A stretch of 64,000 bases of DNA from Bacteroidales bacterium (GTDB lineage Bacteria; Bacteroidota; Bacteroidia; Bacteroidales; P3), in NCBI GenBank assembly GCA_017522105.1, contig JAFXAA010000008.1, forward strand, positions 1-64,000, written 5' to 3'. The notes beneath the pieces were generated by a model. That model made no database searches and was not told where the DNA came from. It saw only the letters and a list, made by a program, of their open reading frames with translations. The stretch's first letter is position 1. Every line of letters begins with the position of its first letter. The translations under genes were made by a program, and so were the position numbers. Of the stretch, positions 1 to 63,206 are shown in pieces.

Positions 1-168
1 ACTATCCACTGACCACTATCCACTGACCACTATCCACTGACCACTATCCACTGACCACTATCCACTGACCACTATCCACTGACCACTATCCACTGACCAC
101 TATCCACTGACCACTATCCACTGACCACTATCCACTGACCACTATCCACTAGTCACTATCCACTCTGG
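1..168. repeat. Heptamer tandem array (ACTATCC/ACTGACC)
   Basis: About 24 consecutive 7-bp units, mostly the alternating pair ACTATCC and ACTGACC, so the array also reads as a 14-bp repeat. The last units degenerate (ACTAGTC, ACTATCC, ACTCTGG). It starts at the window edge and may extend further left. The unit ACTATCC recurs inside the murL coding sequence near 59823. Confidence 0.95.
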
Positions 169-22162: not shown

Positions 22163-22195
22163 AGAGGGCTTTTGATACCCAATCCTGCACGGAGC

Positions 22196-22294
22196 CCCTA
22201 CGGACCCCCTACGGAGTCCCTACGGCCGTTCTTCAGTGGAAGACCGAAACTCAGCCGTAGGGACTCCGTAGGGGGGCCGTAGGGGCTCCGTATG
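22196..22294. repeat. 11-bp-register palindromic repeat element (copy 1)
   Basis: Nine units of exactly 11 bp: CCCTACGGACC, CCCTACGGAGT, CCCTACGGCCG, TTCTTCAGTGG, AAGACCGAAAC, TCAGCCGTAGG, GACTCCGTAGG, GGGGCCGTAGG, GGCTCCGTATG. The left and right halves are inverted copies and could form a long hairpin. The remainder of the 271-bp gap to arcA is AT-rich and holds its promoter. Confidence 0.88.
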
Positions 22295-22360
22295 GGGTGC
22301 ACCACACCTCCTGTGGATATTTTTTTTTATAACAGTTGCTCTATATTGGATTTTTGTTCG

Positions 22361-35514: not shown

Positions 35515-37353
35515 ATGGGACATTTTTTGCCGATTACGTTGGAGGAGGTGAAGAGGTTGGGGTGGGAGCAGGTGGATGTGGTGCTGGTCACGGGGGACGC
35601 ATACGTGGATCATCCGTCGTTTGGCACCGCCGTTATCGGGCGGACGCTGGAGGCGGCGGGGTACCGCGTGGCAATCATTCCGCAGCCGAACTGGAGGGAT
35701 GACCTCAGGGATTTCCGCAAGTTCGGGCGGCCGAGGCTGTTCTTTGGGGTGACGAGCGGGGCGATGGACTCCATGGTGAACCACTACACGGCGGCGCGGC
35801 GCCTGCGCCACGACGACGCCTATACGCCCGGCGGGCAGTTCGGCTTCCGGCCCGACAGGGCGACATACGTGTACACGCGGATACTGAAAGAGATATACCC
35901 CGATGTGCCGGTCATCATCGCGGGCATCGAGGCCTCCATGCGGCGGCTGGCGCACTACGACTACTGGGACGACAAGTTGTTTCCCTCCATCCTCATCGAC
36001 ACGCCGGCTGACCTGCTCCTCTACGGGATGGGGGAGAGGTCGACGTTGAAGATAGCCAAGCTGATTGAGAGTGGAGAGTGGAGAACGGAGAGTGGGGAAC
36101 TCAGCGTGGCGGTGAGGGGGCTGCCGCAGGTAGCCTTTGCAGTTAAGAATTATGAGTTAAGAGTTAAGAGTGACATCATAGAACTTCACTCGTTTGAGGA
36201 ATGCCAGCGGAGCAAGCGGGCGGAGGCGGAGAACTACCAAATCATTGAGCGGGAGAGCAACAAGATTGAGTGCGCGACGCTGGTGCAACGGCACGGCGAC
36301 CGCCTGGTGGTGGTGAACCCGCCGGAACCGCCAATGACGACGGAGGAGATCGACGCCAGCTTCGACCTGCCGTACATGCGGCTGCCGCACCCCAAATACA
36401 AGAAACGCGGGCCGATACCGGCCTTCGAGATGATACGGTGGAGCGTGAACACGCACCGCGGCTGCTTCGGCGGCTGCTCGTTCTGCACCATCAGCGCCCA
36501 CCAGGGCAAGCAGATAGCCTCGCGCAGCGAGGAGTCTATTCTCAATGAGGTGAACCTCATCGCCCAGGACCCGGAGTTCCACGGCGTGCTGACGGACCTC
36601 GGCGGGCCGTCTGCGAACATGTGGAGGATGAAGGGCAAGAACCAAGAACTCTGCCGCAAGTGCAGCCGCTACAGCTGCTCAATGCCCACGATGTGCAAGA
36701 ACCTGGACAGCGACCACAGCGCGATGACCTCATTGCTAAAGAAAGTGGCCTTGCATCCTAAGGTAAAGCATCTCTATGTCGGCAGCGGCATCCGCTGCGA
36801 CCTCTTCACCGAAGGCAACGGAGGCTGGCAATACTTCCGCGAGGTGGTTGTCAACCACACCAGCGGGCGGCTGAAGGTGGCGCCGGAGCATACGTCTGAC
36901 GCGGTGCTGGCGCTGATGCGCAAGCCGTCGTTCAGCCTCTTCAAAGAGACGAAACGCCGCTTCGACGAGATATGCAAGCAGGCGGGGCTGCGCTACCAGC
37001 TGATACCCTACTTCATCAGCAGCCACCCCGGCTGCCGTCTGCAGGACATGGCGGAGCTGGCGCTAGAAATGAAACGCATGGGCTACCGGCTGGAGCAGAT
37101 ACAGGACTTCACGCCCACGCCCATGACGCTGAGCACCGAGATGTACTACACCGGCATCGACCCCACGACGATGAAGCCCGTCTACGTGGCCACCACCCCT
37201 GGCGACAAGGCCGACCAGCGCCGCCTCTTCTTCTTCTACAAACCCGAGATGCAACGCGACATCGTCGCCTCGCTCCGTCGCAAAGGCCTCACGGACTATG
37301 TTTCCAAACTCTTCGGTAACAGTGGGTTAGGCAATGGTGTGCGTAGAAAATAG
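35515..37353 (+). CDS. YgiQ-family radical SAM protein
   Basis: A 612-residue protein. The N-terminal domain is DUF4080/B12-like (LGWEQVDVVLVTGDAYVDHP, GVTSGAMDSMVNHYTA). The radical SAM core has the iron-sulfur motif CFGGCSFC after INTHRG-type SVNTHRG, and further conserved parts are DLGGPSANMW and VAPEHTSDAVL. The C-terminal DUF3362 part is short (IQDFTPTPMTLSTEMYYTG). The reaction is unknown. Two heptamer-coded peptides interrupt the variable linker before the core: ESGEWRTESGEL (about residues 185-196) and VKNYELRVKSD (about 208-219). The frame stays open through both. Confidence 0.93.
   Translation: MGHFLPITLEEVKRLGWEQVDVVLVTGDAYVDHPSFGTAVIGRTLEAAGYRVAIIPQPNWRDDLRDFRKFGRPRLFFGVTSGAMDSMVNHYTAARRLRHDDAYTPGGQFGFRPDRATYVYTRILKEIYPDVPVIIAGIEASMRRLAHYDYWDDKLFPSILIDTPADLLLYGMGERSTLKIAKLIESGEWRTESGELSVAVRGLPQVAFAVKNYELRVKSDIIELHSFEECQRSKRAEAENYQIIERESNKIECATLVQRHGDRLVVVNPPEPPMTTEEIDASFDLPYMRLPHPKYKKRGPIPAFEMIRWSVNTHRGCFGGCSFCTISAHQGKQIASRSEESILNEVNLIAQDPEFHGVLTDLGGPSANMWRMKGKNQELCRKCSRYSCSMPTMCKNLDSDHSAMTSLLKKVALHPKVKHLYVGSGIRCDLFTEGNGGWQYFREVVVNHTSGRLKVAPEHTSDAVLALMRKPSFSLFKETKRRFDEICKQAGLRYQLIPYFISSHPGCRLQDMAELALEMKRMGYRLEQIQDFTPTPMTLSTEMYYTGIDPTTMKPVYVATTPGDKADQRRLFFFYKPEMQRDIVASLRRKGLTDYVSKLFGNSGLGNGVRRK
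36066..36100. repeat. In-frame heptamer tract 1 in the ygiQ-like gene
   Basis: Five units in register: TGAGAGT, GGAGAGT, GGAGAAC, GGAGAGT, GGGGAAC. The peptide IESGEWRTESGEL is encoded. Confidence 0.88.
36141..36168. repeat. In-frame heptamer tract 2 in the ygiQ-like gene
   Basis: Four units: AGTTAAG, AATTATG, AGTTAAG, AGTTAAG. The same words occur between genes at 948, 21418 and 29413, but here they encode NYELRVK. Confidence 0.88.
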
Positions 37354-37378
37354 TTGATTTTCATACTTTTGAGCGAGT

Positions 37379-37422
37379 CCCTACGGAGCCCCTACGGAGT
37401 CCCTACGGCCTTCCTACGGCCG
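37379..37422. repeat. 11-bp-register repeat (copy 2, half element)
   Basis: Four 11-bp units: CCCTACGGAGC, CCCTACGGAGT, CCCTACGGCCT, TCCTACGGCCG. They match the left arm of the elements at 22196 and 51852; no right arm is present. Confidence 0.85.
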
Positions 37423-51379: not shown

Positions 51380-51845
51380 ACATCCCCGTAAGGGCTCCAG
51401 TTCGATAGCCAACCCATAACACCCCGACCATATCCATACCCCGCAGGGGTTCCCGTTTTATAGCCAACCCATAACACCCCGACCATATCCATACCTCGTA
51501 GGGGTCCCCGATTGATAGCCAACCCATAACACCTCGACCAAATCCATACCCCGCAGGGGTTCCTGTTTGATAGCCAACCCATAACACCCCGACCATATCC
51601 ATACCCCGTAGGGGTCCCCGATTGATAACCAACACATGAAACCCCTCCTGTAGCCATACCCCGTAGGGGTCCCCGTTTGATAGCCAACCCATAACACCCC
51701 GACCATATCCATACCTCGTAGGGGTCCCCGATTGATAACCAACACATGAAACCCCTCCTGTAGCCATACCCCGTAGGGGTTTCATTTTAATAGCCAATGG
51801 TTTACGTATTTTTGTCAATGAACCCTGTAGGGGTTCCATTACTCC
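51380..51845. repeat. 55-bp tandem array, about eight units
   Basis: The word ATAGCCAAC (or ATAACCAAC) recurs at 51405, 51460, 51515, 51570, 51625, 51680, 51735 and 51790, a period of exactly 55 bp. Each unit contains an ACCCCGTAGGGGT-type inverted repeat. Two unit types alternate late in the array: type A with CACCCCGACCATATCC and type B with GAAACCCCTCCTGTAGC. The last unit is degenerate. There is no gene here; minus-strand frames with GYGRGV-like peptides are by-products. Confidence 0.93.
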
Positions 51846-51851
51846 CTGGCT

Positions 51852-52016
51852 CCCTACGCACCCCCTACGCACCCCCTACGGCCCCTCACCGGAGCCCCTA
51901 CGGCCGTTCTTCAGTAGTTCTTCAGTAGTTCTTCAGTCAAACACTGAAGAACTACTGAAGAACTACTGAAGAAATGCCGTAGGGACTCCGTACCGGCTCC
52001 GTAGGGACTCCGAAGA
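51852..52016. repeat. 11-bp-register palindromic repeat element (copy 3, longest)
   Basis: Fifteen consecutive 11-bp units. The left arm has CCCTACGCACC twice, CCCTACGGCCC, CTCACCGGAGC, CCCTACGGCCG, TTCTTCAGTAG twice and TTCTTCAGTCA. The right arm is its inverse: AACACTGAAGA, ACTACTGAAGA twice, AATGCCGTAGG, GACTCCGTACC, GGCTCCGTAGG, GACTCCGAAGA. The central arms (about 32 bp each) pair almost perfectly around a four- to five-base loop. Confidence 0.94.
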
Positions 52017-59314: not shown

Positions 59315-59389
59315 CGCTTCAATTAACGCGGCAGCCTTTTTTTTATTGTGCAGATGTAATATTTGGTTTCTTTTGCCGTTAAATTACAC

Positions 59390-60808
59390 ATGCACAACAA
59401 TGATAAGTTTCAGTCGCTGCGGCGGCAGTACCCTTCGTTCGAGTATGTGGCCTACCATCACGAGGAGACTCCTGAGGGGTTGCGCCTGTGGTTCGACTTC
59501 CGCATGGGCGACATAGAGTTCCACCCTACAGCCCTTGTGGAACGCCGACCGTTCCTCGACTTCAATGCCGCCATCGACGACATCGTCTTCAATATCGGTA
59601 TGGTAGAACTGGTGAGCTACTGGAAGTGTGCCTGTCCGCCTACCGTCAAAGTGCTTTGCGGCAGCCTCTCCGACAGTCAAATAGCCTTCTGGCGCAAGCT
59701 CTACTGGCACGGCCTCGGCGAGTTCTTCTATACGAATGGCATAGATGCGTCCTTCGATGATTTTATGCACCTAAACGGCTACAAGACGGCAGGAGAACAG
59801 CATCAAATACTACCCACTACCCACTATCCACTATCCACTCACTACCTTGTCCCTATCGGCGGCGGCAAGGACAGCGTGGTCACCCTTGAACTGCTGCGCA
59901 GGGCGGGCAGGTCGGTGCGGCCGCTAATCATGAACCCGCGCGGCGCCACCGTGGAGTGTGCCAGGGTGGCAGGTTTCCCGGTGGAGGAGGTCCTTGTCAT
60001 CCGCCGCACCATCGACCCTGTGCTGCTTGACCTTAACAAGCAGGGGTACCTCAACGGTCACACGCCATTCAGCGCCATGTTGGCTTTCTACACCCATCTG
60101 GCCTCCGTCCTCAGCGGTATCCCCAATGTGGCTCTCAGCAACGAGAGCTCCGCCAACGAGAGCACCGTCCTCGGCACCAGCGTAAACCATCAGTACAGCA
60201 AGAGCCTCGAGTTTGAGGACGACTTCCGGAATTATTGCATTAATGCAGCAACGTGTAAATGTGTTAGTGCTGACGCGCCAGCCACTGACGCAATAACGCA
60301 TTCACGCAATAACGCATTCAACTACTTCTCTTTCCTGCGCCCGCTTACCGAGTTGCAGATAGCCATGCTCTTCAGCCGCTTCACGGCCTACCACGATGTG
60401 TTCCGCTCCTGCAATGTCGGCAGCAAGCAGGACATCTGGTGTGGCCATTGCGCCAAGTGCCTCTTCGCCTACATCATCCTCTCGCCGTTCATCGCCCCCG
60501 AGCGCCTCAACGCCATCTTCGGCAAGTCTATGCTCGACGATATGTCGTTGCGTACTGAATTCCTGCAGCTCACAGGCCATGCCGAGACAAAGCCTTTCGA
60601 GTGTGTCGGTACCGTCAGCGAGGTCAATGCCGCGCTGTCTATGGCGATAGAACGCTGGTATCCAGTCTCTCGCCCGGCATTGTTGAATGGCTATGATGTC
60701 AGTGCCATACCTCCTGCCGACACGCTCCATTCCGTCGCCGCTATAGGCAACCTCACAGCCGAAGAGCGTCAAATACTACAAGCAGCATGTACAGAGAAGA
60801 CCAACTGA
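59390..60808 (+). CDS. murL: MurL-type UDP-MurNAc-L-Ala-L-Glu epimerase
   Basis: The ATG at 59390 gives 472 residues (a longer frame starts at 59363). Landmarks are the N-terminal ARRLxF-type region (IEFHPTALVERRPFLDFNAA), the pyrophosphatase-like loop VPIGGGKDSVVTLELLRRAG, GIPNVALSNESSANESTVLG, and a CxxC cluster in WCGHCAKCLFAYIILSP. MurL inverts the terminal L-Glu of UDP-MurNAc-L-Ala-L-Glu to D-Glu using ATP, which replaces glutamate racemase (described in Xanthomonas oryzae). It overlaps murD2 by 22 bases, the typical partner. Heptamer and octamer tracts lie inside the gene (59809 and 60288). Confidence 0.85.
   Translation: MHNNDKFQSLRRQYPSFEYVAYHHEETPEGLRLWFDFRMGDIEFHPTALVERRPFLDFNAAIDDIVFNIGMVELVSYWKCACPPTVKVLCGSLSDSQIAFWRKLYWHGLGEFFYTNGIDASFDDFMHLNGYKTAGEQHQILPTTHYPLSTHYLVPIGGGKDSVVTLELLRRAGRSVRPLIMNPRGATVECARVAGFPVEEVLVIRRTIDPVLLDLNKQGYLNGHTPFSAMLAFYTHLASVLSGIPNVALSNESSANESTVLGTSVNHQYSKSLEFEDDFRNYCINAATCKCVSADAPATDAITHSRNNAFNYFSFLRPLTELQIAMLFSRFTAYHDVFRSCNVGSKQDIWCGHCAKCLFAYIILSPFIAPERLNAIFGKSMLDDMSLRTEFLQLTGHAETKPFECVGTVSEVNAALSMAIERWYPVSRPALLNGYDVSAIPPADTLHSVAAIGNLTAEERQILQAACTEKTN
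59809..59843. repeat. In-frame heptamer tract in murL
   Basis: Five units: ACTACCC, ACTACCC, ACTATCC, ACTATCC, ACTCACT, encoding LPTTHYPLSTHY just before the GGGKDS loop. ACTATCC is the same unit as in the array at the window start. Confidence 0.92.
60288..60319. repeat. Octamer tract in murL
   Basis: Four 8-bp units, ACGCAATA, ACGCATTC, ACGCAATA, ACGCATTC, preceded by a degenerate stretch with similar words (about 60232-60287). The frame stays open (DAITHSRNNAFNYF) and the family-typical FSFLRPLTELQ follows. Confidence 0.85.
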
Positions 60809-61902
60809 GAGCCTGTCTCGCCGGCAAGACGATACTCATCGCCGGCTACGGCCGCGAGGGGCAGAGCGCCGAGCGCCTCGTCAAGCGTCTCGTCCCCGAA
60901 GCGCAATACACCATAGCCACAAAGGTGGAGAACAACAGATGGAGAGGCACGGATGAACAGTGGCACGACGAATGGCCGTTCGATATGGTCATCAAGTCGC
61001 CCGGCATCCCTACCTTTCATCTTCCATCCGCTTCCTTCAGCCTTACCAGCCTGACAGATATCTTCCTGCAGGTCTACGGCGACCTTACCGTCGGCGTCAC
61101 CGGCACCAAGGGCAAGTCCACCACCGCCAGCCTCATCCACCATTTGCTCCCGGGTAGCATCCTCGCCGGCAATATCGGCATCCCCCTCTTCGACATCCTC
61201 GACGACATAAATGAAGACAGCATCGTGGTGGCCGAACTCTCTTGCCACCAGCTGGAGAACATACACCGCGCACCACATATCTCGGTGCTGCTCAACCTCT
61301 TCCAGGAGCATCTCGACCACTACGAGGACTACCTCGGCTACAAGATGGCCAAGTTCCAGATTGCCCTCCGTCAGCATCCCGGCGACCATTTCTTCTACTG
61401 CACCGACAATCAAGAGCTTCACAATCTGGTGCGTGACAATGAGACCGCCGTCTTGAGTACCGTGCATCCCTACAGCCTTGGCGACGCCACCGACGAAGAA
61501 CGCCGTCTTCTCGACGCCTGCCCCCTCAGCGGCGACCACAACCGCAGCAACGCCCTCGTGGCATGCCGTGTGGCAAGCCTGGTGACGCGTCAGCCACTTT
61601 CCACTGTCCACTTTCCACTTTCCACTTTCCATGGCCTCCGCCACCGCTTGGAGAAAGTCGGCACCTGTCAGGGCATCACGTGGTACGACGACAGCATCTC
61701 CACCATCCCTGCCGCCGCCATCGCCGCCGTGCGCGCCCTCGGCCGCGTCGACACCCTCATCCTCGGCGGCTTCGACCGTGGCATCGACTACTCGCCGCTG
61801 GTCGCCTTCCTGAAGGTGACGCCTTTGAAGAATGTCGTATTTGTCGGAAAGGCGGGCAGGAGGATATACGAAGACCTTGCCACTTGCCACTTGCCACTTT
61901 AA
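60787..61902 (+). CDS. murD2: MurD2-type UDP-MurNAc-L-Ala:L-Glu ligase, broken by a repeat
   Basis: A Mur ligase N-terminal part of 371 residues. Landmarks are the Rossmann-like start [31 protein letters not shown], the P-loop [11 protein letters not shown] (about 103-112), [24 protein letters not shown] and [20 protein letters not shown]. It should add L-Glu to UDP-MurNAc-L-Ala, acting with MurL. A heptamer tract at 61594-61628 encodes [13 protein letters not shown] between the central and C-terminal domains. A second tract at 61876-61903 ends the frame with TAA at 61900-61902, cutting off the last 50 residues, which continue in another frame (61903-62057). One extra 7-bp unit would restore the frame. 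Confidence 0.88.
61594..61628. repeat. In-frame heptamer tract in murD2
   Basis: Five units: CCACTTT, CCACTGT, CCACTTT, CCACTTT, CCACTTT. By my recollection of MurD alignments the peptide here is about as long as in relatives, so the tract seems to stand in for native sequence rather than add length. Confidence 0.9.
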
Positions 61903-61903
61903 T
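61876..61903. repeat. Frame-breaking heptamer tract in murD2
   Basis: CTTGCCA three times, then CTTTAAT. The upstream frame reads LATCHLPL and stops at TAA. With one more CTTGCCA the reading becomes [18 protein letters not shown], which joins the C-terminal MurD sequence in frame. Confidence 0.95.
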
Positions 61904-62057
61904 CGAGGACGACTACTCCAAGATAGTGCCTTGGTGCGCCGCGCACACGCCGCAGGGTGGGGTGGTGCTCCTCTCGCCGGCGGCAGCCAGCTACGACGCT
62001 TTCCGCAACTTCGAGCACCGCGGCGACTTCTTCCGCGAACAGATCGAACGGTTGTAA
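61903..62057 (+). pseudogene. murD2: Out-of-frame C-terminal end of murD2
   Basis: In the frame of codons starting at 61563 plus multiples of three, the sequence [20 protein letters not shown] and [20 protein letters not shown], ending FREQIERL, is the normal C-terminus of MurD proteins (SPACASFDMFxNFxxRG motif). It has no start of its own. It is either lost in this genome copy, recovered by slippage, or an assembly artefact. Confidence 0.85.
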
Positions 62058-62072
62058 CTTATTTATAGCGTT

Positions 62073-63206
62073 ATGACAGATTATACAGATATAAGACATC
62101 GTTTGCACGAGCATCCGCAGACCGCCGGCAACGAGCAGTTTGCCCACGATACCATCATCCGTCACCTCCAGCAGCTGCACCCCGACAAGGTCTACACCCA
62201 TGTCGGCGGCTACGGCGTCATCGCCGTCTGGGGCAAAGACCCGCAGAGGCCCACCGTCGCCTTCCGCGCCGACATCGACGCCCTGCCCATAGGCCACCGC
62301 TGCGGCCACGACGGCCACAACACCATCCTCCTCCGCCTGGCAGAGCTGATAGATAATGAAGAATTGAGAATGAAGAATGATGAATCGGCTACCGCAGCCA
62401 TTGATTCTTCATTCTTCACTCTTCACTCTTCATTCAATTATCTTCTCCTCTGGCAGCCCGCCGAGGAAACCGGCACAGGCTCGCGCGCCATCCTCGACAG
62501 CGGCATCCTGCAGCAGTACAATATTTGTGCAATCTATGGCCTGCACAACATCCCCGGCTATCCGCTCGGCACCGTGGTCCTCTGTCCGCGTACTTTTGCC
62601 GCCGCCTCCACGGGCGTCGTCTACCACCTCGACGGTCGCGAGACCCACGCCTCCACCCCCGAGTTGGGCGTCAACCCAGGCCTCGCGGTGGCCGAGATAA
62701 TGCAGCGTTTCGCAAGTTTCAACAACAGTAAAGGCGAATTCCGCCAGAGCACACTCATCTGCGTCCATGTTGGGCAGCCCGCATTCGGCACCTCCGCCGG
62801 ACACGGCGAGGTGATGTTCACCCTCCGCGCCTTCACCAACGACGAGATGGAACGCCTGATTCATGACGCCAACAGCGCCGTCGACGAGATTGCCGCCCGC
62901 CACAAACTGACAGTCAGCCGCACATTAGTCGAACCTTTCCGCGCCACCGAGAACAACGGCGATTGCGTGGAGGCAATAGAAAAAGCGGCAGAGGATGTGC
63001 CGCTTCGTGTCCGTTATCAGATGGAGCCCAACCGCTGGAGCGAGGACTTCGCCGAGTATTTGCTGGAGTTCCGCGGTGCCATGTTCGGCATCGGCAGCGG
63101 CGAGCGGCAGCCCGAGCTGCACCACCCCTCCTACGACTTCCCCGACGCACTCATTGAGCCTGCCGCCCAGCTGTTCTTCCGCCTGGCAGTCGGCTATAAC
63201 CAATAA
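62073..63206 (+). CDS. M20D-family amidohydrolase/aminoacylase
   Basis: A 377-residue enzyme of the hippurate hydrolase/N-acyl-diaminopimelate deacylase group. Metal-binding motifs are FRADIDALPIGHRCGHDGHN, WQPAEETGTGSRAIL, YGLHNIPGYPLG and the final LHHPSYDFPDALIEP. It removes an acyl group from an amino-acid amide; the substrate is unknown, but its place after murL and murD2 suggests cell-wall amino acids. A heptamer-coded segment at residues about 95-122 (EELRMKNDESA then SSFFTLHSSFNY) precedes the PAEETG motif and lengthens the loop by about 20 residues relative to relatives. Its stop codon lies in a heptamer cluster. Confidence 0.88.
   Translation: MTDYTDIRHRLHEHPQTAGNEQFAHDTIIRHLQQLHPDKVYTHVGGYGVIAVWGKDPQRPTVAFRADIDALPIGHRCGHDGHNTILLRLAELIDNEELRMKNDESATAAIDSSFFTLHSSFNYLLLWQPAEETGTGSRAILDSGILQQYNICAIYGLHNIPGYPLGTVVLCPRTFAAASTGVVYHLDGRETHASTPELGVNPGLAVAEIMQRFASFNNSKGEFRQSTLICVHVGQPAFGTSAGHGEVMFTLRAFTNDEMERLIHDANSAVDEIAARHKLTVSRTLVEPFRATENNGDCVEAIEKAAEDVPLRVRYQMEPNRWSEDFAEYLLEFRGAMFGIGSGERQPELHHPSYDFPDALIEPAAQLFFRLAVGYNQ
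62356..62438. repeat. Inverted heptamer pair inside the amidohydrolase gene
   Basis: Left arm: ATGAAGA, ATTGAGA, ATGAAGA, ATGATGA. Right arm: ATTCTTC, ATTCTTC, ACTCTTC, ACTCTTC, ATTCAAT. The arms are inverted relative to each other, so the mRNA could fold into a hairpin. The frame stays open throughout. Confidence 0.92.

Follow-up and report, generated by a model that had tools for sequence, protein, structure and literature searches.

Several bacterial genes are known in which a tandem tract of seven-nucleotide units changes its length and, with it, the state of the gene; the papers are cited here on the basis of the available passages. In prophage CUS-3 of Escherichia coli K1, a coding (AAGACTC)n heptamer switches the capsule-modifying gene neuO; the tract lies at the 5′ end of the gene and holds 3 to 53 units, and the gene is off in 42 of 64 genomes (PMC13001214). 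In Haemophilus influenzae, 7-nt tracts of changing length (13 to 38 units) are found mostly in the promoters of the adhesin genes hmw1A and hmw2A, and a frame shift in strain PittAA goes together with such a tract inside the hmw1A open reading frame (PMC2651432). At the genome level, heptanucleotide repeats (Mrazek 2007, as cited) are reported to outnumber every other repeat class in most of the repeat-rich genomes that one survey covered, with period 7 predominant, many loci per genome and polymerase slippage as the proposed origin; these known sets are mainly intergenic and made of few unit types, such as TAACTGA and GGGAATC (PMC4679880, PMC4692102), and repeats are said to be suppressed in the middle of genes (PMC4692102).

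A second point of comparison is the MurD2-MurL route of Xanthomonas oryzae, where murL adjoins murD2, MurI is not found, and Glu and Arg occupy the residues that decide for L-Glu (PMC8788868, PMC5808125). Bacteroidales are not among the MurD2-MurL taxa listed in the available passages of these two papers, in which "bacteroid" occurs 0 times.

The window analysed here, a stretch of 64,000 nucleotides, belongs to contig C5 of a 2.28 Mb assembly (92% complete; genome G000 below) whose closest kin are uncultured Bacteroidales of the rumen. Its murD2 carries, like neuO, a heptanucleotide array within the coding sequence in which the unit number sets the frame and slippage would act; unlike in neuO, the array lies near the 3′ end, holds about 3-4 units, is in frame in the relatives and belongs to a cell-wall housekeeping gene. 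The neighbourhood resembles that of Xanthomonas oryzae in all the features named above, although the MurL of G000 scores below the Xanthomonadales cut-off and coding arrays are present here. In contrast to the known heptanucleotide sets, the arrays of the surrounding clade comprise many unit types and lie inside conserved genes with the frame kept; they are long heptanucleotide repeats in a new setting. At the DNA level they resemble the known heptamer switches, and they lack two properties of phase variation, as developed below. Among the titles listed by word searches of open-licence papers, none concerned in-frame heptamer arrays in Bacteroidales genes.

The murD2 tract in the window and in relatives

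The frame of murD2 runs from ATG 60787 (1 mod 3) to a TAA directly behind a CTTGCCA array, and the MurD C-terminus continues in another frame, at GAG 61905 (0 mod 3), to the stop that ends at 62057 (Table 1). The first part comprises the N-terminal and ATP-binding domains, with a Pfam Mur_ligase_M match, and half of the C-terminal domain. The first-pass annotation had held that murD2 is broken by a three-unit heptamer tract which one added unit would repair. The break is borne out, with 3.4 exact copies and a stop at 61900, and the frame arithmetic was right; moreover, the protein of the nearest sister genome, G023, reads ELSTCHLPLSTLIEDDYTK at the array, close to the peptide that had been inferred. 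With up to 3 mismatches allowed, the window matches the array once, and no match arises in 100 dinucleotide shuffles. As in a contingency locus, a non-triplet tandem tract within the gene sets the frame by its unit number.

Table 1. Features of the murD2 region and of the other loci discussed (window positions unless a contig or locus is named)
Feature	Position	Strand	Evidence
murL (epimerase), frame open	59363-60808	+	NF041275, 246.5 bits, cut-off 700 not reached
Arrays in murL: heptamer; 8/16-base	59809-59839; 60288-60320	+	Tandem Repeats Finder and array count
murD2, first part, 371 aa	60787-61902	+	TIGR01087, 202.4 bits, model 1-387 of 441, cut-off 211.95 not reached
Second heptamer array in murD2 (CCACTTT), frame kept	61594-61631	+	Tandem Repeats Finder and array count
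Heptamer array CTTGCCA x 3.4 in murD2	61876-61899	+	Tandem Repeats Finder, 24 nt, period 7, 100% match
murD2, last part, other frame, with MurD C-terminal motif	61905-62057	+	TIGR01087 positions 394-440 of 441, E 4.7e-11
Amidohydrolase (M20 family), frame open	62073-63206	+	Pfam PF01546
Arrays in amidohydrolase, roughly inverted complements	62355-62385; 62404-62435	+	Tandem Repeats Finder and array count
ygiQ (radical SAM), frame open	35515-37353	+	TIGR03904, 786.7 bits, above cut-off
Arrays in ygiQ	36067-36095; 36141-36171	+	Tandem Repeats Finder
Period-11 arrays	22189-22297; 37375-37419; 51852-52012; G000:C31:1-90		Tandem Repeats Finder and contig ends
Stand-alone MurD C-terminal domain, 176 aa, between mraY and ftsW (outside the window)	L143:4717-5244 = G000:C31:40216-40743	-	murD model 296-419

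Protein identity between G000 and its sister genome G023 is 94%. Over positions 60317-62044 the DNA of G000 and G023 is 94.8% identical, with 7 gap positions in total, and the single gap of the 1735-column alignment is formed by 7 bases at the CTTGCCA array, where G000 is one unit shorter; the murD2 of G023 is open. Among the 30 genus loci read, the early end at 371 aa occurs in G000 only, the other 29 reaching at least 413 aa. The copies of G005 and G017 are open as well, that of G017 starting at a contig end, and G014 was omitted from the displayed alignment as its frame continues into the next gene. Outside the 30 loci, the murD2 of G013 (locus L174, G013:C199:9500-11764) has an internal TAG, without an array at the break, and runs off the contig end. 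The TAG is real in that assembly, which has 280 contigs and is 83% complete, so that the murD2 of G000 should not be called the only broken copy of the genus.

For a wider comparison, 80 loci of the murD2 region were collected, and gene counts use 66 of them, namely 32 of an array-bearing clade and 34 others, L123-L129 and L131-L137 being excluded as distant. The limits of the clade (L058-L088 and L090) follow the ranking of loci by identity together with whether arrays occur at the site, so that the clade is not blind to the trait; it contains the sister G023 itself (as L084), and several of the loci and numbered genomes are the same genomes. A quick tree places L089 inside the clade, yet its murL, murD2 and amidohydrolase genes are free of arrays, and for this reason it was grouped with the non-clade loci.

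The distance between the AGRRI and EDDY codons, which flank the array, is divisible by 3 at every readable site, 31 among the 32 clade loci (the contig of L082 ends at the site, which is not counted) and is 38 in G000. The clade lengths are 36 (3 loci), 39 (12), 42 (6), 45 (9) and 81 (1). The repeats themselves are heptamers in 24 loci and octamers in five, with no clear array in two, both the sequence and the length of the unit (7 or 8) varying among species. Intact copies are found in 29 of the 30 genus loci and in 31 of the 31 readable clade sites. The occurrence of both on and off lengths among relatives, which a contingency locus should display, is not seen, G000 alone being off against these 31 sites.

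Past the break, the 46 codons that follow the array differ from those of G023 by 3 nucleotide changes (2 codons synonymous, 1 non-synonymous), against 56 nucleotide changes (26 codons synonymous, 20 non-synonymous) in the 360 codons before it. In these small numbers, the relaxed constraint of a decaying pseudogene is not apparent, and so little change past the break agrees with either an error or an event of very recent date.

The predicted MurD2-MurL route in the genus

Profile searches of the 37 genomes of the genus set detected MurD (TIGR01087, E up to 1e-40) once in 33 genomes and twice in none; it was not found in G012, G018, G019 and G035, four absences where 4.4 are predicted from completeness. 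MurI, the glutamate racemase, was found in 0 of the 37. The other Mur-type ligases of G000 are MurE, MurF, MurF-Alr, MurC, a MurC/Mpl-like protein and FolC. In a wider set of 61 genomes, MurL occurs in 38 and MurI in 17, both together in none and neither in six, the MurL match lying below the curated cut-off in all 38. A predicted MurD2-MurL route is thus widespread in a genus of Bacteroidales.

The homology to MurD is clear in the sister protein, with 12 PDB MurD/MurC matches (best 8.5e-42), and the TIGR01087 cut-off is passed in G023. Aligned to 2jff, this protein has Glu and Arg at the equivalents of E. coli MurD positions 182 and 348, the L-Glu-deciding residues according to the available passages of PMC8788868; the Arg is not exclusive, being found in S. 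mutans MurD too. As befits a murD2, the gene adjoins murL in a genus where MurI was not found, though MurL stays under its cut-off (246.5 versus 700). On these sequence grounds, murD2 is a predicted L-Glu-adding MurD2 paired with MurL. Regarding other sources of D-Glu, a D-amino-acid aminotransferase (TIGR01121, 1e-30) was found in none of the 25 genus genomes searched, a weak test since only 1 of 14 control genomes was over the cut-off. With murD2 as the sole MurD that the genus searches detected, and MurI in 0 of 37 genomes, the MurD2-MurL route looks indispensable there, and an off state of murD2 should stop wall synthesis. Judged by these searches, murD2 would not be the dispensable, typically surface-related gene that a contingency locus contains.

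The part of murD2 that is lost in G000 includes the motif with most positions invariant in 34 aligned relatives, and E. coli MurD Ala414 and Leu416, which lie near D-Glu (PMC8788868, available passages), map into it in the alignment. Having lost this motif and these residues, the truncated MurD2 is probably inactive. A fold predicted for the sister protein from 34 sequences (mean pLDDT 87) places the array-coded residues 364-374 at the end of a helix, in a loop and where a strand begins.

What is left of the canonical murD in the genus is a conserved C-terminal domain that stands alone. A short frame in the dcw cluster of G000 matches this section of the murD model only, with 75.8 bits, below the cut-off (Table 1). 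Such a match exists in 36 of the 37 genus genomes (it is missing in G026), the order mraY-domain-ftsW holds in 30 of 30 loci checked, and a conserved end like FRxEVNEL replaces the MurD motif; weaker matches lie in open frames of 193-216 aa in G037, G039, G041 and G051. The canonical MurD N-terminal and ATP-binding domains were not found at the mraY-ftsW slot, and the 176-aa frame gives no ATP-binding-domain match, so that this domain is no substitute for MurD. That it is conserved suggests a task other than catalysis. No stand-alone MurD C-domain was found described in a title-word search of open-licence papers.

Frame-keeping arrays and their turnover

The murD2 tract is not isolated. Counting exact runs of at least 16 nt, 126 arrays occur in 95 clade copies of murL, murD2 and the amidohydrolase gene (40 in 32, 72 in 32 and 14 in 31 copies, respectively, of 32 loci), and no frame is broken by them: all 95 copies are open, that of L082 as far as its contig end. 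The 34 non-clade loci hold 2 arrays in 84 gene copies, all 84 open. Among the latter, an apparent break in the murL of outgroup L093 proved to be a counting artefact, as the match starts a few residues ahead of the start codon and so spans a stop upstream of it, past which the frame is open. Furthermore, in G000 the genes rsmH, prmC, alaS and ygiQ, all above their NCBIfam cut-offs, carry heptamer arrays in open frames.

Period-7 tandem runs reach 27.8 per 100 kb in the clade loci, a density that is no genome average because these loci were chosen around murD2, against 4.8 in the other 48 loci and 9.0 in the G000 sample; this is the excess at period 7 that distinguishes long heptanucleotide simple repeats. 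Periods 14 and 21 follow, with 14.6 and 19.1 in the clade versus 4.0 for each period in those 48 loci. A second peak is found at periods 11 and 22 (10.3 and 6.8 in the clade versus 1.4 and 2.0 elsewhere), period 11 standing at 13.1 in the G000 sample, while periods 5, 10 and 13 give 0, 1.1 and 0.6 in the clade.

At the array sites in identified genes, the length difference between G000 and G023 is a multiple of 3 in six of seven, the seventh being the murD2 tract. These six differences are 0, 0, 0, 9, -12 and -12, the last two being neighbours and not independent; an unnamed frame at C31:27650, with +102, was kept out of the count. The arrays of the relatives keep the reading frame by their lengths, presumably owing to purifying selection. 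Loss of mismatch repair was considered as a source of the arrays and rejected, since MutS is matched in G000 (over model positions 2-840 of 840) and in all genus genomes but G021 and G026 (35 of 37). Loops of 7 nt escape MutS.

The identity of the units turns over. On the quick tree (32 clade-site rows and four outgroup rows, with 17 of 33 inner forks open and no shuffled control), at least 21 changes of unit class are required, part of which are point changes because some classes differ by one base only. In the sisters L059 and L060, identity along murD2 is mostly 92-100% but drops at the array, over three consecutive windows of 60 columns, to 77, 57 and 75%; the repeat there is a heptamer in one sister and an octamer in the other. 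A lesser dip (88, 85%) accompanies the other array of the gene. The pattern suggests the exchange of a short patch in which the array was replaced along with its surroundings, one clear case from which generality may be inferred. For G000 and G023, the proposal that arrays are recombination hot spots found no support, identity in the array flanks being 0.877 versus 0.868 elsewhere. At the prmC array (G000:C31:87607-87642), the coding strand is mainly G-free in G000 and mainly C-free in G023 with equal net length, a replacement with opposite strand make-up.

The 215 heptamer arrays in 1.03 Mb have units with C and without G in 115 cases, with G and without C in 63, with both in 34 and with neither in 3. 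Inverted-complement arrays make up 10 of 19 pairs spaced by 8-60 bp and 36 of 584 far pairs (P 4e-8; 3e-6 once three orthologous sites are merged). Such pairs, tens of bases apart and hairpin-capable, lie at window 62355-62435, G000:C15:82271-82668 and G000:C9:39066-39150, partly inside open frames.

Other repeats are found in the genome. A period-11 family (CCGTAGGGACT, GTTCTTCAGTA and others) is G+C-rich or palindromic and occurs at contig ends too (Table 1); a 55-bp unit is repeated 7.2 times at window 51384-51780 with 83% matches; and a palindromic dispersed repeat of about 100 bp (L045:487-589, G000:C15:40487-40589) has dozens of matches, on both strands, across G023. The contig itself starts inside an 11.7-unit array of the 14-mer ACTATCCACTGACC (window 1-164), a sign of an assembly break at a repeat.

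Origin and meaning of the break

Since the differing repeats of the relatives at this site keep the gene readable, we read the break, with a probability of about 0.75, as an error of assembly or consensus or a slippage loss that arose recently in the sampled population, rather than a functional on/off switch. The tract is one of many coding heptanucleotide arrays which a rumen Bacteroidales clade carries in housekeeping genes, held in frame in the relatives presumably through purifying selection. The units turn over among species, in one clear case by the swap of a short patch holding the whole array. At the murD2 array, the shortfall of one unit with respect to the sister removes the last ~55 residues and the conserved C-terminal motif. 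If murD2 is indeed the sole MurD and MurI is lacking, a cell with this short allele should not build its wall. The array-free stop of G013 is evidence to the contrary: either breaks of this kind come from noise in assembly, or murD2 can be broken with less fatal effect than inferred.

Both forms of this reading are given equal weight, each somewhat short of even odds. If one unit was dropped in assembly from an array that is in frame in the organism, both the location of the break in an apparently indispensable gene and the little change past it are accommodated. The other stop-bearing copy of the genus, that of G013, is found in a poor assembly, and tandem repeats lie within the last 90 bases at 4 of 10 contig ends examined, so that repeats do trouble the assembly of G000. 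Nevertheless, a collapse would be surprising in an array of only ~31 nt, which fits inside a short read, and arrays of up to 73 nt were assembled within G000 contigs, with the other coding arrays in frame. A real and recent variant of the sampled population, deleterious and bound for purging, agrees equally with the little change past the break and also with a difference of exactly one unit, slippage having been proposed for heptamer repeats (PMC4679880, PMC4692102, available passages); a lethal allele would, however, be expected to be rare and not to form the consensus.

An unlikely, though broader, proposition is that the clade owns a coding-repeat system, made of heptamer and octamer arrays, some in inverted pairs, which would keep the frame, sit in helix ends and loops of housekeeping proteins and be swapped as whole cassettes between species. 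Each gene would then risk a lethal one-unit slip, and the murD2 of G000 would be a captured failure.

The first-pass annotation had named phase variation or an assembly collapse as possible; the interruption of murD2 stood, with one 7-nt unit fewer than in the nearest sister, and phase variation as a function found no support. A non-triplet tract inside the gene, a sister with one more unit and in frame, and the existence of coding heptamer switches speak for an adaptive toggling of murD2 by array slippage, as in neuO. We nevertheless consider it very improbable: this is a housekeeping enzyme and no surface structure, the only MurD found in a genus where MurI was not found; its tract is short (3.4 units) and near the gene end; the 31 readable clade sites are all at the on length, against 42 of 64 neuO genomes off (PMC13001214, available passages); and no frame is broken by the 126 non-triplet arrays that relatives carry in 95 gene copies. 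Recoding at the array in translation or transcription is less credible still, for although the frame past the array is conserved and open to its natural stop, inspection by eye of the junction revealed no slippery run or homopolymer, and the relatives hold the frame by length instead.

Non-triplet repeats in bacterial genes are usually taken as phase switches, and this clade has conserved genes in which they are carried with the frame kept. In such a clade one could study, in nature, how fast slippage occurs, what unstable DNA costs a gene that is indispensable, and how rumen species swap short DNA patches. A further lesson is one of caution: when a metagenome assembly shows an indispensable gene as broken, a repeat can be the cause. 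In addition, the predicted MurD2-MurL pair in a Bacteroidales genus, together with a canonical MurD that appears reduced to its C-terminal domain, bears on the roles of MurD besides catalysis.
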